Assembly (NCBI GenBank): GCA_963513935.1
Contig: OY740768.1
Span: 78,269,631-78,333,630, forward strand
Reading direction: 5' to 3'
DNA length: 64,000 nucleotides
Source: Aphrophora alni
Lineage: Eukaryota; Arthropoda; Insecta; Hemiptera; Aphrophoridae
Part shown: positions 39,148 through 53,516 of the stretch, one piece after another
Layout of the letters: each line of letters begins with the position of its first letter
Numbering within the stretch: the first letter of the stretch is position 1
Made by a program: the position numbers and the translations under genes
Notes under the pieces: model-generated
Database searches by the model: none
What the model was told of the DNA's origin: nothing
Seen by the model: the letters and a program-made list of their open reading frames with translations, nothing else

Positions 39148-40084
39148 GGCATATGCTTGCGTTGCTTAGGCATAAACTCGCTTTAGGGTTAAATAGTATT
39201 TAATTAACATGAGGTTTATAATCGATATGTTCAGAGTCTAGTTTTGGTTTTTGCCAATTATGTTTTACTTTGGAATTTGCACAATAATTAGAATTTTTAT
39301 TCTTCAAATTTCACCAAAATTTGAATTTAAACGATATATTGAGAAATAATGTATTTATTTAGATGATGACAAATATTTGTTGATTTTACCCGTAAATCAC
39401 GAAGCGACATCAATGGAAAGGTGGCGACGAGCATTACTGTTCATGTGAATATTTAGCGGCTACTATTTAGCGAAAATTGATTTTTTTTTTAAATGTGAAA
39501 ATCGATTTTGAGAAATTTGAATTTTTCTTTTTTACTAACGACAGGTACCCAGATATCTCACGTTATCGTATTTAGTAAATTTTGCCCAAAAAGAAAAAAA
39601 ATTGATCTACACGGTTCGGCAGACATAACCAATAGACTTCATTCCCAAAACCACTTTTTATGGATTTCAGAGGATCCCAAGTTAGATAATTCCGCGTGTA
39701 ACGCGACATCGGTTGTTTGTTCCATTATCTCTATACTATGTCTATATAGAATATAATTCTAACATGGTTTTATTTAAAAAATTAATCATCATAAAAATAA
39801 CAAGATGCATATATAAATTTTACGTAGATGTTCCTTAGAGTAAATTTCGAAACCATGTAACAAATTTTACATGTTTATGGAAAAAGAGTTTGACGTTCCT
39901 AAATTCAGTATTATAAAGGTGGTATATTTGACTGCTGAACAACAGAAATACACATAATTTTATTGGAGTAAAATTACACCCCTGGGAAAGTTCTACTCCC
40001 ATTTCTCCCTGTGTTCCACTCCACCATTTTTAAAGATGTGATTCTACTCAAAATTAAATAAACGCCGGAGTGGAAAAATGTATT
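39148..40084. other. Stretch between the two 165-bp repeats, part 1
   Basis: No gene recognised. Contains two TATTTAGCG copies at 39448-39471, a paired GAAAATYGATTTT near 39473-39509, and a GC-richer block at 39540-39720. The frame at 39508-39756 shows no motif. Short inverted pieces (TTCCACTCC near 40013, GGAGTGGAA near 40070) are present. Confidence 0.4.
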
Positions 40085-40318
40085 ACTCTCTGTATTTATT
40101 TATTGATATGAAGCTATGACATAAAACGAAACTAATTCATCAACTAACAATTCTTCTGGCTTTGGCTATTCCTCATACTAACAAAAAAATATGCCAACAT
40201 ATAAATCAAATTCCACGTATTACCAAACTAAAGTATATGAAAATACTTAGATGCATCGGCATCTAATACTCATGATAATTTAAAATACACTTTTGTAGTG
40301 TTATTTATTTCCATGAAG

Positions 40319-40373
<55 letters not shown>

Positions 40374-40440
40374 AATCATCAAATAACAATTCACCTGGCT
40401 TCTGTCTAATCGTGAAACTAACAAAATATATTTGTTTTCT
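40085..40440 (+). repeat. Local duplication of about 110 bp, split by a microsatellite
   Basis: The blocks at about 40090-40195 and 40300-40435 match in order: TATTTATTTATTGATATGAAG versus TTATTTATTTCCATGAAG, then TCATCAACTAACAATTCTTC versus TCATCAAATAACAATTCACC, then CTGGCTT and ACTAACAAAA. In the second copy the two parts are pushed apart by an (AT)20(TG)6 microsatellite at 40322-40372. Confidence 0.7.
40322..40372. repeat. Compound (AT)20(TG)6 microsatellite
   Basis: A perfect AT run to 40361 passing directly into TG repeats. It interrupts the second copy of the local duplication above. Confidence 0.95.
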
Positions 40441-41422
40441 GACTTACAGTTAGCAATCCTTGAATTCAACTCTATTGATTTATTTTATTATTTGTTGCTT
40501 TTATTGACTGATTTGGAGACTTGAAGTTGATTTACTTGATAAACGGTAATTGGAAAAAAAATTAGAGACAATCAATATTTCTTTATTTAGTGTGTTACTT
40601 CGTTATTTTTGAAATCTGTAAAGTATTACCTACTTGTTTATATCAATTGGTTAATTTCTTGAAAAGTGTTTTAAAGTTAATTTTTAATTAGTTATTTACA
40701 AACTTTGCCAGAAATTAGAGAAATATTGTGTGTTTTGACGTAAAATCACTACGCATTTTGGTTGTAAATGTTTTGTTATTTCTGTAGATTATTAACTCTT
40801 TTTATGTAAATTTGTTTAATCTGTTGATTTAATAATTATGTATTTATTGTACAGTTTGAGTTAATAATTTTAAATATATATATATATATATATATTTTTT
40901 TTATGCAATTTTTTATATTTATTATTGTCAGTGGTCAATTTTAAGTTATTGTTTTCTGTTTCACAAGTGGGCACAAGAAATACTTATGCCGGGTTTAGTA
41001 TATATTAGGGTTATATTAAATATATCACTTGTGAATTTTATATTAAATGCAGAGTAGGGAAATTCCTTGGAGTTTGTTTCATTATGTAAACTAAATCTTA
41101 ATGTCAATGTGTCTCTTTTTCCTGCGAAAAAGTCATCACAGAAATAGACTTATAAAGGCTTAACGGAAGTTTGCTTTTGATTTTGGTGAATTTAGTAGCT
41201 AGCCGTTGAATAATAAGGTCTCAGTCAGAAGAAACCAAGAGTTAATAAAGAGAGACATGAGTGGAAAGAATAAAGAGAGGGTTCTAACCCAATCCTAGAC
41301 GAAGAAACGTTGATGAATCTCGGGATTGTCACTATAAGTAAGCGCCTGAAGACAGAATGAGAGTGGATTTTATTCCAGAAAGAACACTCTTCTAATTTTG
41401 TTGTCATGAGTCAATAAGCCAT
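40441..41422. other. Stretch between the two 165-bp repeats, part 2
   Basis: No gene recognised. A short (AT)11 lies at 40874-40895. The 60-codon minus-strand frame at 41225-41407 has no motif. Confidence 0.45.
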
Positions 41423-41586
41423 ACTAAAAAATCCAATTTTAATTACTTACTTAGTTTTCTTTTATATTTTGTGCGGGAGAAAAATTCATCTGGAAGGACC
41501 CAATTAATCATCACTAAACTTGAGGAATATATCTTTAAATATGTTTAAAACAACAAATAGTCGAACAGATCTTTGGTATTTAACAA
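41423..41586 (+). repeat. Near-identical dispersed repeat, copy 2
   Basis: Partner of 38979-39147, same orientation, 2.4 kb downstream and about 200 bp before the jockey-type LINE fragment. It is followed by a small duplication of AACAAAGATAAT at about 41583-41594 and 41601-41612. Confidence 0.92.
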
Positions 41587-41799
41587 AGATAATTTGGTTT
41601 AACAAAGATAATGTGCTAGTAATTTTATTTACTATTATTCAACCTGAGGAAACAAATTAAACACGAGAAGTGACCTTTGTTGAGGAGGTCACGTTGAAAT
41701 CGATGTTGGGATTTACCAAACCAGTTGTGTGAGATTTTAAAGTCGTATATTACTGACATATTTTTTAGAATAAAATATAATGATCAACACTAAAAATTA

Positions 41800-42480
41800 A
41801 TAAGTAACGTAATGGGACCTGTATTTATCTACTATATCTGCGGGACATACCAACGTCTAAAATGGAAACATGGCTACATTGAAGAGGATATATCTGTTAA
41901 TAATGTAGGAAACAGCATAGAAGAAATTACCAAAAATACAAAAAACAACTGCATAACGCCATTGATAATGTAAGTGACTCGTTGAAACGATGCGGAATCA
42001 GGATTATTGAAACTAAATCAACACACATAAATTATATTATCAAAAGAAAATAAATTTTAAAAAACTTTGGAAATCAATGCAAGACACATTTTTAAGAATA
42101 ATACTTAGACCTGAGCCTTTTGATATAAAATAAAGGTGAAAAGGGCACGAATAAAAAACTGTAAGAATTAAACAGTTGATTCATATTTATTGGGTGATTG
42201 GCAGGAATCCTAAACTCTCAGTTCATTACAAAGCTCTGTTATATCGGTTGTTTTTTGTTTGTTTTTTAATGGTTTGGACGTATGGAATACAGCTTTGGGG
42301 ATGTACTAAAAACACTAACGTAAATATTATCAAAAAGTTCCAGAATAAAGTAATGCTTAAATATATCATAGTATTCGTTGAGGAGACAAATATCTAGATG
42401 GTCTGTTCATTCATAAGCTGTTTGAGTTAAATGTGTAAAATTGCAAGTGTGAGTTTGGACTTCGATAAAAGTGGTAGAAA
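41800..42480 (+). mobile_element. Jockey-clade LINE fragment, RT end and C-terminal domain
   Basis: On the plus strand about 41812-41940 reads MGPVFIYYICGTYQR, which matches the (V)LGP-x-LY-x-x-YTADIP block of jockey reverse transcriptases. The following FADD catalytic block is eroded. About 41940-42035 reads NVSDSLKRCGIRI then ETKSTHINYII, which matches the WRIKINETKS-HI-FT block. The frame 42176-42397 reads YWVIGRNPKLSVHYKALLY then VWTYGIQLWGCTKNTNVNI, the classic LIGR-SKLSL-NK-LLYK / WTYGIQLWG-S-N-I-I block. About 42395-42450 continues weakly. Several stops and shifts separate these blocks; it is a dead, 5'-truncated copy. Confidence 0.88.
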
Positions 42481-44136
42481 AATAATGAGTGAATAGATTG
42501 GTGTTTGTAAAACTTCAAAATAAAATCGTTTCTTCAAGGTACAGAGACAGTGATTGAACTTTAGTTCTGTATCTGTAGTATTCGTGAGTGTGGTTTTGAA
42601 GCGAGCATGAAAATGCGTTGTGTGTTAATTTCTCAATTGTATCCGAACGCCTACTTTGTGTTAACGTTTCACATGCCAATCCATACGTATGCATGATTCT
42701 AGTTCTATTATTTAAACTACAGTTTTATGAGTCAATAAATATCTCATTAATACTGTAGTTACAACCAAGATTTTCAAGATTAGATTGTAATTCAGAGCTG
42801 TTCCTTCTAGGTTAATAATATGTTGTCAGGAGTTTTTCTTCTGTAATTAACAATATTGTGTCTTTATAATTTTTTTTGACTTGCATATATATCATCAGCC
42901 TTCTCGGACATTTCATAGTATTGTAAGTAATTGCAACTTCCTGGAAAAACCGTCATAATATTTAACAATTAAGGGTGTTAACAACATATGGAAAACCCAG
43001 ATCTAAGACTTGGGGAAACGTAATTAAAAAATACTAGTTCAACAGTAAAACTCAAAGTTATATCTCGTCTATTCTTTAATAATCGAACACATAGGAATTT
43101 CAATTGAAGAAATAACGATAACTTATTCCATTATTGTAGGTTAAATAATAATAAATATAAGTTACAATAACAAATTATAATGAAGGAGATATATTTGTGG
43201 ATTGTTGACGATTACATCTACAGTTATTTGAAATGGATTTAGTCACGTCTGAAAGTTTCAGTTGCCGGAAGGTGGTTCAACGTATTCAGTAATTTTTAAT
43301 GCTCGACTCTCAGTCCTTCTTTCAGTTAATACTCGTTAAATTACGTGAAATTAAAAGGCTTTTGCTAAATGGATTAAAGTAGTAATTATGCTCCGGGGAA
43401 CGTTGGTACAAAGTTTTCCTTTTAGGAATCTTTGATTATTTTTAAAATGTCGGCATCAATTGTAAACATATTTAAGTTATTTGTTATTAATTAATGAAAA
43501 TGATATTAGGAAGAGGAAATATTTAATAATACATTCCTTACAAGAATATATTATTCGGTATTTTATTTCAACTTTCTCAGCTTCCTTCATGATGCAATAA
43601 AAACAAAAGCGTTGAAGATCACGCTTAAATATGTTATTACAAGCTATTTTATCTAATGGTTTTGATGCTACAACTGCATCATTTAGCTACTTACTTTACA
43701 GAAAGGTTGTAGTTTTTAAAATCATAATCTTACTCTATACTATATACTTATTTTAAAATATATTAATAATTATGAATTGAAATCAGTGATTACTTCATTT
43801 TATTGATGAATTCGTGTCCTGTAATTTGTTACTAATCTTTGTATCTTTGATATTTTGTTATTCATGATATTTTGTTGTAGTAGGAAAATGTAGAATATTG
43901 AATGTTTTAAATAAATCGTTACGATTATCTAGTGAAGACAAATAAACCAAATAAAATACTATATAAAACAATTATTTTCAAAAACAGTATAATTAGTGAA
44001 AGTCTCTAGGAAAAAGCGAATCAATCGGGTTTAAATCATTTTTAAAATAAATAAATAAAATATAGATCTGAGAAAAATAAACTGTGTAAAAACATTAAAA
44101 ATGTTCATACACATCCGTTCACAATCTATATACTAA
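42481..44136. other. Non-coding stretch
   Basis: No gene recognised. Lies between the jockey fragment and the 3' end of the minus-strand pseudogene. Confidence 0.45.
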
Positions 44137-45128
44137 CTAAACAAAACTATTTAACGCTACAAATGCAGCTTGGTAGTTATGGTGAACATACACATCTTTG
44201 TTTTTTAATTGCCTTTCAACTAGAGAATGTACCTCCTTTTGGGTGTGACCCTTTATTAAAAATGTTTGAGTAACAGTAGTACTGTTTTTCATTGTATAGT
44301 GAATCAGTGCGATTGCAAGAAACTGGTTCCTATTCTGGTGCACACATCCATCTATATATATTACTATAGGCAGCTTGGGATCTAAACAATGGTTTTCCAG
44401 GTAGTCTATCAAGCAAGACGCAAATGTACAAACAGATAGGTCCTCTTCAGTTTCATTGAACCAATAACACGTAACCTGATTATTTGGTACGTTATAAATA
44501 GTATAATTAATTATGGCTGCATAACTTGGTCTTATAGTCCATCGCGCTAGCTCTTGTAAAAGGAGTCACTTTGTTTACTTCTAAGTCAACTGTTAAGCAA
44601 TACATTTTACCATGTTTTCCCAGTTTTTTATCGGCTTCTTTTCGTCCCGAGCAGTTTTTTTTTTGTTCCACGTGTGCCTGTCAATCTTCTTTGTTTACGT
44701 CGCCAGCTTTAAATGAACAACACTTATCGCATTGACCTTTTCGTGATGAATATAAAGTAAAATTTTAATCTGCAAACACATAGTCAAACAATGCCTGACT
44801 GACCCATTCTTTCCCTTCATTTTGTACAACTGTCTTCGTAAAATGTGTACAGATGGATTACCAGACTGGCTCTAAGTACAGTTTTGAAGTATTTTTCCTG
44901 CAGTAATGAGCTGGCAACTTTGGCAATTGCCTTAATCATTCCTCGACTTTGTATCTTTTTGTAGCAGTCTTTTCTCTTTTTCTAAAAGTTGTAGGATATT
45001 CAATTTCCATTCTTTTGAATTGGACTTCTTTCTTCTTTTACTATCGGTATCTTGTGTAAAGTTGTTAAAATTTTCTGACATCTGTATTTCATCGGTCAAT
45101 TCTTGACTCTCCACTACGGTTGAGTTGC
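44137..45128 (-). pseudogene. Terminal exon of the pseudogene, DDE-like module
   Basis: The acceptor is a T-rich TTTTTTTCAG. The first 66 codons are open (VESQELTDEIQMSEN to a TAA at about 44932), with a basic KRRKKSNSKEW stretch near the end. A shifted frame then holds HYCRKNTSK (about 44910-44885) and CDKCCSFK (44731-44708), broken by four stops. A third frame, open for 143 codons from 44565 to the TAG at 44137, holds IYIDGCVHQNRNQF (about 44355-44320) and GHTQKEVHSLVER (about 44250-44212). The pattern D-x-x-x-x-QN-N followed by GHTQ-x-E-x-x-HS-x-x-E is what one expects of an RNase H-fold transposase-like core. Compared with the family as I remember it, two residues before VHS (usually an acidic residue plus Ser) are missing. 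Confidence 0.75.
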
Positions 45129-45223
45129 CTGAAAAAAATTACAAACATGTGAAACTATTAGAGTAAATTCAAGTATGCACAATTAACTATTTATTAATTA
45201 TTAACTTTATCATTCAAAATTAC

Positions 45224-45443
45224 CTCTTATTTCATCCTTAGGCTCTGATCCATGTGATTCCACATTTTCTGGATTATAATCTGGGTCTTGACTTTCGACT
45301 ACTTCTTCACCTCATCACTTTGAAACAGGTATTCTACTTCAAAATAACCTGAATTTTTAGTAATGTTTTCATTTTCAAGTGTTTTTAACCATGTTCATGG
45401 TTTTGGCATTGTTTTCCCACATTGTCATTTGTATTTTTACTCT
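45224..45443 (-). pseudogene. Internal exon of the pseudogene
   Basis: Bounded by a long pyrimidine tract and TTTCAG on the 5' side and by AGAG-GTAATT on the 3' side. It encodes an acidic linker with SKNTNDNVGKQCQNHEHG, then after a shift TLENENITKNSGYFEVEYLF, then after a one-base loss VVESQDPDYNPENVESHGSE. The motif VVESQ occurs here and again at the start of the next exon, which suggests an internal duplication of exons in the ancestral gene. Confidence 0.65.
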
Positions 45444-45652
45444 CTGAAAAAAAAAAAATAATAAAAAAAAAAATAAATAAATAAATAAATTTAAAAAATA
45501 ATAAATGTACGTTCATATTTTAGTTACGTCCCAATATTTTAAACGTACATATTAAATGCACCAAAACAGTTTTCAAAAGCCTGATACTTTCTTTTCGCCA
45601 TATCTATTCCATTAAGATCGAAGGCCTGTATAAATGAATTATAATTATTAAT

Positions 45653-45877
45653 TTATAGTATAGCATTATTTTTAAACTTAGGTTCAGTAGTATGATCAAT
45701 AACAACAACTTCTCTCTCATTAAGTAAATCTGTTATTTGGAAAATTTCTGGGTTTTGACCAATATCCAAATTGTTTATATCAAAACCCTCTTCATATACT
45801 ATCTCAACATCATTAATTTGAAGAAGTACTGGCATCAAGTAGGATAGCTTGGTTTTCTTTCTTTCGTGGGTTTTTGT
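45653..45877 (-). pseudogene. Second exon of the pseudogene (3' limit uncertain)
   Basis: Starts after CTGTTTCAG at 45877. In phase with exon 1 it reads DKNPRKKENQAILLDAST and then stops. A second frame overlaps from 45835 (MPVLLQINDVEIVYEEGFDI) and stays open 60 codons to 45653, so a single-base shift near 45840 is likely. The downstream donor is not clear. A further small exon may follow an ACAG at about 45624 (CCTTCGATCTTAATGG). Confidence 0.5.
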
Positions 45878-45939
45878 CTGAAACAGTCAAATGTACATCA
45901 GTTAGTGATACAATAAACATTTCATTATACATACATATT

Positions 45940-46265
45940 TATCAATTTTATGTTGTATTGAAGGATTTAGGTGTCTATGCCTGGTGTTATAATTTTGATT
46001 ATTTGAAGATAAATTATCGTTTTGTTTAACATAATTATAAATTGCTTCGAGCATAAAAAAGAGACTGTACTGTTAGTTAATATTTATAAGTTTTTTAAAT
46101 GATCGAAACATGTATCACTGGGTTTTAGGCCAATTATACATCTGATTGCGCGTTTTTGTATTTTAAGAATTGTATCAATATTTATTTTACTAGAATACCC
46201 CATAGTATTATGGAATACATTGATTCAGTAGGTGCTGGTAATCAACAGGTGATTTATACAAAGTA
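45940..46265 (-). mobile_element. CR1/Crack-like LINE fragment inside intron 1
   Basis: Between exon 1 and exon 2 of the pseudogene and on the same strand, about 46225-46080 reads NTMGYSSKINIDTILKIQ and then KRAIRCIIGLKPSDTCFDHL. In a second frame about 46055-45945 reads FMLEAIYNYVKQNDN and then NNQNYNTRHRHLNPSIQH. This is the familiar C-terminal block of CR1/L2/Crack-type LINEs (QKRAIR-I-GL / LKIL / Y-LE-YV / N-YNTR). One TAA and one shift separate the parts. The element lost everything upstream. Confidence 0.85.
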
Positions 46266-46417
46266 TATTTTTTAGTCTATGTTTCAATTTTTACATTTAT
46301 TTATATAGTATGAAAATAGAAAATACTGCTTACCTTTACATGTTAGTTTAATGGTGTTTTCTTTCGTCAGTCCTTCTACAATATCAACAGCACTAGATTC
46401 CTCCATCGTTTACTAGG

Positions 46418-46843
46418 AATACCACGTATCTATAACCAATATAGGCCTACTTTTGAACTAGAATAACACGTATCTCATACAATTAATTTCAAAATCAATT
46501 TACAATGAAATCATGTCACACATTTATTCAACTTACCCTATTCTGTTTTTGGTTATTTAAGAATGGAAACTGATATACCATAATGTTAATTGCTTTAGAA
46601 AAATATAATAAAACAATGAATAAATCCGGCTTACGGAGATGTGTGTCTTGTTTACAATGCAGCAGAATACAAAATACATGTTATTAAAAGTTGATATTGC
46701 CAACTGCAAGATACGTGGTCCAACATTTCCCTACTTTTATGGCATTTCCCACACTTTATAATATACGAGTTATTAGAATTCTGGTGCGGGGCAGTCATGG
46801 CAACCAAAAAAAAAACATAAAAATGGAAGATACGTGGTATTAG
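46418..46843. promoter_or_regulatory. Four copies of a TACGTG-containing motif upstream of the pseudogene start
   Basis: AGATACGTGGTATT occurs on the minus strand at 46418-46431 and, with one change, at 46461-46475, and on the plus strand at about 46709-46720 (diverged) and 46829-46843. The nearest is 12 bp upstream of the pseudogene ATG. The core TACGTG is the site of bHLH-PAS dimers (HIF/SIM with ARNT) in insects. The pairs face each other. They could be promoter elements or the subterminal binding sites of a transposase. Confidence 0.4.

Positions 46844-53516
<6,673 letters not shown>

Follow-up and report, generated by a model that had tools for sequence, protein, structure and literature searches.

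The 64,000-nucleotide stretch of the Aphrophora alni genome analysed here (the window; contig OY740768.1, our C3, in an assembly of 1.70 Gb and 388 contigs) carries on its minus strand the remains of a transposase gene, which very probably belong to a cut-and-paste DNA transposon with a DUF7869 transposase, in a dead copy that is truncated at its 3' side. The element is of the DDE/D cut-and-paste type, its family is DUF7869, and intact relatives that have been moving recently are found elsewhere in the host genome.

The DUF7869 remnant in the window

A description made from the letters alone (the sequence-only reading) had proposed a decayed transposase-like gene at 46406-44137, and its central claim was borne out by homology. 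The window core matched an intact relative by tblastn with an E value of 9.5e-85, and the alignment scores of two conserved blocks were reached by none of 200 shuffles; the similarity is thus far beyond chance. A profile search with the last open frame, as had been suggested, returned Pfam PF25273 (DUF7869) at 27.9 bits, above the curated gathering threshold of 26. The same threshold was passed by four of seven intact relatives, the other three falling below it (25.8, 25.5 and 18.6 bits), and all 50 homologues of our alignment matched DUF7869 at E ≤ 0.01.

The features described earlier were present in letters and reading frames on the minus strand, including HYCRK at 44908-44894, CDKCC at 44731-44717, DGCVHQNRN from 44352 and GHTQKEVHSLVER from 44250, while the extent had to be corrected at both ends. 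At the 5' side the element starts at about 46857, beyond the range given: some 200 bp of the window copy aligned with the 5' ends of five elements of family A (70–73%), one of seven families (A to G) of relatives described below, and the coding part aligned with the family A transposase. At the 3' side, roughly the last 13 residues of the proposed open reading frame are not transposase, as the homology runs out at 44187-44173 and a different, short dispersed repeat begins at 44180. When the best 40 of 51 candidates for this repeat were scored, 26 of the 34 listed non-self genome matches (counted by hand) lay within 44180-44048 (query 121-253; 73–89% identity), none of them beginning before 44180. 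The layout is as follows.

44180-46857, minus: remnant of the DUF7869 DNA transposon, from its 5' terminus to the 3' truncation (5' and coding alignments to family A; other repeat from 44180)
46826-46857, minus: 5' terminal inverted repeat, decayed, with CACGTATCTTCC as its core at 46836-46825; family A position 2018, the first base of its terminal repeat, aligns to 46857
46758-46769, minus: weak subterminal site, offset +67 from the terminal-repeat core, 4/12 mismatches
46706-46717, minus: subterminal site, offset +119, 1/12 mismatches
46669-46680, minus: weak subterminal site, offset +156, 4/12 mismatches
46467-46478, plus: inverted subterminal site, offset +358, 3/12 mismatches
46423-46434, plus: inverted subterminal site, offset +402, 3/12 mismatches, just before the ATG
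46334-46406, minus: exon 1, MEESSAVDIVEGLTKENTIKLTCK plus one base (phase 1), agreeing with families A, B and C in position and phase
45878-46333, minus: intron 1 (phase 1), placed like the first intron of families A-C (reading frames and family comparison)
45654-45877, minus: exon 2 remnant, acidic N-terminal region, frame shifting near 45814 (letters and open frames; weak similarity to the homologue P0001)
45129-45223, minus: possible 95-nt intron, splice consensus at both ends, flanks lacking homology support
44510-44971, minus: coding remnant with the HYCRK and CDKCC blocks, first catalytic Asp at 44587-44585 and four in-frame stops (tblastn, shuffles, reading frames)
44187-44508, minus: remnant of the RNase H core (DUF7869) with the second Asp at 44352-44350 but without the probable third Asp (Pfam match, tblastn, reading frames)
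44076-44180, minus: start of the different dispersed repeat adjoining the 3' truncation (genome matches)

In itself the window copy is an unremarkable fossil, incapable of making a working enzyme. Its frame is broken by stops at 44938, 44860, 44767 and 44683 and by a frameshift near 44509, and relative to its relatives it has lost 9 nt at 44233/44232, which removes GDS of GHTQMEGDSVH and with it the probable third Asp. The cysteine and SRR region of the relatives (family A residues 200-349) gave no match at E ≤ 1 in 40001-50000 with seven proteins as queries, which suggests a deletion of about 150 codons near 45000, the piece preceding it having been recognised by eye only. Furthermore, a 93% identical copy of 47848-46629, which takes in the 5' end of the transposon and 1 kb beyond it, lies at G000:C7:28362999-28364233, probably through a later duplication of the site.

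Intact relatives and the first intron

The host genome was searched with the last open frame, the best 150 of 872 candidates being scored and 150 matches listed at E ≤ 0.001. Within this set the best non-self match had 66% identity over residues 19-131, and a hand count gave open frames of at least 650 aa free of internal stops in 56 of the 150 listed rows. Twenty relatives, fetched with their flanks, formed the seven families; frames were read in 12 of them and seven intact frames were compared. Intact elements measured 3.48–4.30 kb with open frames of 743–963 aa. Pairwise identity was 98.8–99.97% within families A and C-G (L043 of family D matching in two pieces), and family B matched in two pieces at 87 and 96%. 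Some copies were damaged: a stop splits L034, L037 is likewise split, and L033 is shortened. Family A (L031-L035) resembles the window copy in its core (66% protein identity), in where and in which phase intron 1 lies, and in its 5' terminus and subterminal sites; its copies are, in contrast to the broken and truncated window copy, 99.2–99.5% identical and full length, with a full open frame in three of five. With near-identical intact copies available, experiments can directly address target choice, DDD catalysis and the repeated sites. P0129, a protein from another contig, was 99% identical to the searched part of L048 (family G), pointing to either the same species sample or horizontal spread.

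Protein searches scored 337 and 495 homologues in overlapping sets, with the best 120 of each listed. Among the matches listed, named homologues were mostly from insects and molluscs and were annotated as uncharacterized, hypothetical or similar, the closest to the transposase coming from a leafhopper (61%) and a planthopper (56%). The sequence-only reading had anticipated a family common in arthropods and poorly characterised, and homologues were indeed found in many arthropods, without a name. One listed homologue was labelled as a bacterial metagenome-assembled genome (Sedimenticola) and was taken for contamination; no relative was found among 26 and 22 pattern matches in bacterial and viral contigs, respectively. 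A literature search in one library found no paper on DUF7869 or PF25273. The Pfam model names no function, whereas the members studied here are the transposase of mobile elements, which provides a probable function for this domain; the uncharacterized and hypothetical DUF7869 homologues are likely to be transposases and not ordinary genes.

In each of families A, B and C the long frame begins at the acceptor of a phase 1 intron, and ahead of that intron lies a short first exon, which in A reads MQDPASEDSDLIDDILLSLENEDNMIR. In the window, exon 1 has its ATG at 46406, at a similar distance from the element's 5' end, with the donor AAAG/GTAAGC at 46334/46333 and the acceptor TTTCAG ending at 45878. 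Judged by its position and phase, intron 1 is the only intron confirmed by homology. The earlier argument that an intron speaks against retroposition therefore stands for this intron, and relatives with an intron do exist.

The inner splice sites fared differently. A donor GAG/GTAATT is present at 45224/45223 and acceptors TTTTTTTCAG end at 45444 and 45129, but none of the three frames of 45443-45225 reached a significant similarity (shuffles did equally well in 55, 152 and 173 of 200 cases), and 45126-44935 gave no convincing similarity, its score being matched by four of 200 shuffles and its best place not being collinear. The inner exons and splice sites are consequently unsupported by homology: 45223-45129 may be a 95-nt intron, although the seven intact frames lack it, and nothing backs the acceptor at 45444. 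Introns 2 and 3 found no support in the relatives, the seven intact frames staying open across the region. The assembly search yielded no other copy of the window coding part close enough for judging them, and among twelve further loci compared with seven proteins none that was not a near-copy covered the region; the six non-near-copies (L007, L008, L019, L020, L021 and L028) are uninformative on introns, as their alignments begin at residue 152 or later.

Element ends, target duplications and catalytic core

The proposed host-genome search for intact relatives flanked by inverted repeats found both. In families A-G the terminal inverted repeat is imperfect, with the ends agreeing at 16–20 of the first 20 positions and similarity extending to about 30 bp. 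Target duplications were scored in the 18 of 20 copies that retain both ends (two mismatches or fewer), leaving out L032 and L034 because of a damaged 3' end. Identical 4-bp flanks were found in 17 of the 18, the exception being L035, and the duplication was ATAT in 13 of these 17, TTAT in two, and AGAT and ATAC in one each. Because most flanks are ATAT, chance agreement is frequent (158 of 306 pairings of flanks from unrelated copies); the informative copies are the five whose left flank is not ATAT: in four the two flanks agree (TTAT, AGAT, TTAT, ATAC), and in L035 they do not. No copy had identical 3-, 5- or 7-mer flanks, and 6- and 8-mers agreed only within AT repeats. L041-L044, L046 and L048 were located in AT-dinucleotide repeats, as expected for a strong ATAT target preference.

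A core inside the terminal repeat recurs in the families at offsets of about 79–80, 130–131 and 167–169 bp, with inverted copies at 373 and 416 in families A-C and near 382 in F and G, and further copies 183–194 and 216–226 bp before the 3' end. The cores are listed by family.

Families A and B: CCACGTATCT
Family C: CCTCGTATCT
Family D: CCTCCTATCTGA
Family E: CCTTGTAACCCA
Family F: GGTCGTAACTCC
Family G: CCAAGTAACTCC

The core sequence thus differs between families and is shared by several sites within one family (clearest in D, E and F). When up to 3/12 mismatches are allowed, two of the three 5' places are occupied in each of families A-F and one in G; there is an extra site at 159 in E, and the 3' end of D has one site. 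A search with ten-base cores, allowing a single mismatch, additionally recovers the place near 80 in B, C and G. Random 12-mers of the same element fitted the three places as well as its own core in 0, 1, 0, 0, 1, 0 and 0 of 500 cases (A to G). A strict 10-mer search found four sites in the window copy, compared with a shuffle mean of 0.16 and a maximum of two. Its sites at 67, 119, 156, -358 and -402 are shifted by 12–15 bp relative to the families, and the C7 duplicate has 15 bases in the shifted region that are absent from the window copy; two further weak hits (191 and -306) match no family place. We infer that the recurrent cores are transposase-binding sites. The balance tips slightly towards DUF7869 transposons carrying a phased array of such sites, with places kept across the seven families though not all filled; enzyme and sites would then co-evolve, and gene regulation is a further possible role of the inverted pair ahead of the start codon. 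This reading is weakened a little by the fit at the three 5' places, where a family's own core was the best of the seven cores in just four of seven families (C, D, E and F), was tied with another family's core in A and G, and was worse than A's core in B. Among the papers listed by a literature search, none was on such subterminal-site arrays, as judged by title or start of abstract.

The RNase H fold that had been proposed agrees with the DUF7869 match of the window frame, and in the relatives this fold and three acidic residues are predicted from a structural model and conservation, the triad in the Nilaparvata homologue P0010 being Asp508, Asp585 and Asp626. The catalytic cores of Mos1/SETMAR and retroviral integrase, which are DDE or DDD, show about 10% sequence identity with the DUF7869 core, which is DDD. 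Sequence searches of solved structures with the window frame or a 50-row profile gave nothing relevant. The long exon of the relatives encodes an acidic tail, a probably DNA-binding part of cysteine/helix-turn-helix-like character, and the RNase H core with its DDD triad. For binding and cutting, as for the role of each Asp, we infer the scheme: the transposase would most likely bind the inverted-repeat core (CACGTATCT in families A-B) and its subterminal copies, cut at the CG ends of the element, and integrate it at AT-rich targets, mostly ATAT, of which 4 bp are duplicated.

Alternative origins and surrounding sequence

Sola transposons also have a DDD triad. In PMC3627910, Sola2 is described with AT-rich 4-bp target duplications (AWWT; ATAT, AAAT, ATTT), terminal inverted repeats of 12–13 and 21 bp, and an 888-aa transposase. 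The elements found here resemble it in their AT-rich 4-bp duplications including ATAT, their short terminal repeats and, approximately, the length of their open frames; they differ in imperfect repeats of about 30 bp, and four of the 17 duplications (TTAT twice, AGAT and ATAC) depart from strict AWWT. The elements probably belong to Sola2 or to a superfamily near it, as judged through the target duplication and not by protein comparison. That single ground is what speaks for a DNA transposon of some other superfamily, undescribed or sharing 4-bp duplications, an alternative that is unlikely, if still appreciable, given the ATAT-type duplications reported for Sola2 (PMC3627910) and the DDD triad of Sola transposons.

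The sequence-only reading had offered a dead DNA transposon copy and a dead duplicate of a domesticated gene as the two possible origins, and the terminal repeat, the subterminal sites and the many near-identical relatives favour the former. If the remnant were a dead duplicate of a host gene descended from a transposase of this kind, the intron and the finding of no close relative of the coding part in the assembly would be accounted for. This origin is nevertheless very improbable, since the mobile relatives have intron 1 too, the 5' terminal repeat and subterminal sites have been kept, which a host gene need not do, and the 1.2-kb C7 duplicate holds just the 5' end with outside flank. A processed retrocopy or a chance assembly of motifs is refuted by intron 1, retained at the place and phase seen in families A-C, and by the strength of the tblastn match, and its probability is negligible.

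Several observations weigh against a dead copy of a DUF7869 cut-and-paste transposon. No 3' end of the window copy was found when the 3' tails of families A, B and C were locally aligned to 42000-44172, the scores staying below the maximum of block shuffles, and its own target duplication therefore cannot be shown. An assembly search skipping common words gave 13 non-self matches and among them no close copy of the coding part, the sole match above 90% being the 5' end plus outside flank. Taken by their letters, exon 1 and the similarity of exon 2 to P0001 are weak (11 and 7 of 200 shuffles equally good, respectively), and these exons were accordingly assigned by position, phase and the collinear 5' region. 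A first exon like that of A-C was not found in D, E and F, the families covered by that search. In the core, E624 and E633 are likewise invariant, so that the third acid is not proven, and Foldseek by itself gave no match at E ≤ 0.001, the best being an HIV intasome (E 0.012).

Around the transposon remnant, the letters at 45902-46224, inside intron 1, read by eye like the tail of a putative LINE reverse transcriptase, and an open frame at 42155-42397 resembles, again by eye, another such tail (YGIQLWG...KKFQNKVM). A CT/GA dinucleotide array of about 150 bases lies at 47676-47846, with frames of pure SLSL and RERE. Elsewhere in the assembly, COI was located at G000:C388:10261-11598 on a contig of 27.6 kb, which is long for an insect mitochondrial genome, and many other COI-like fragments were found on chromosomes (27 matches in total).
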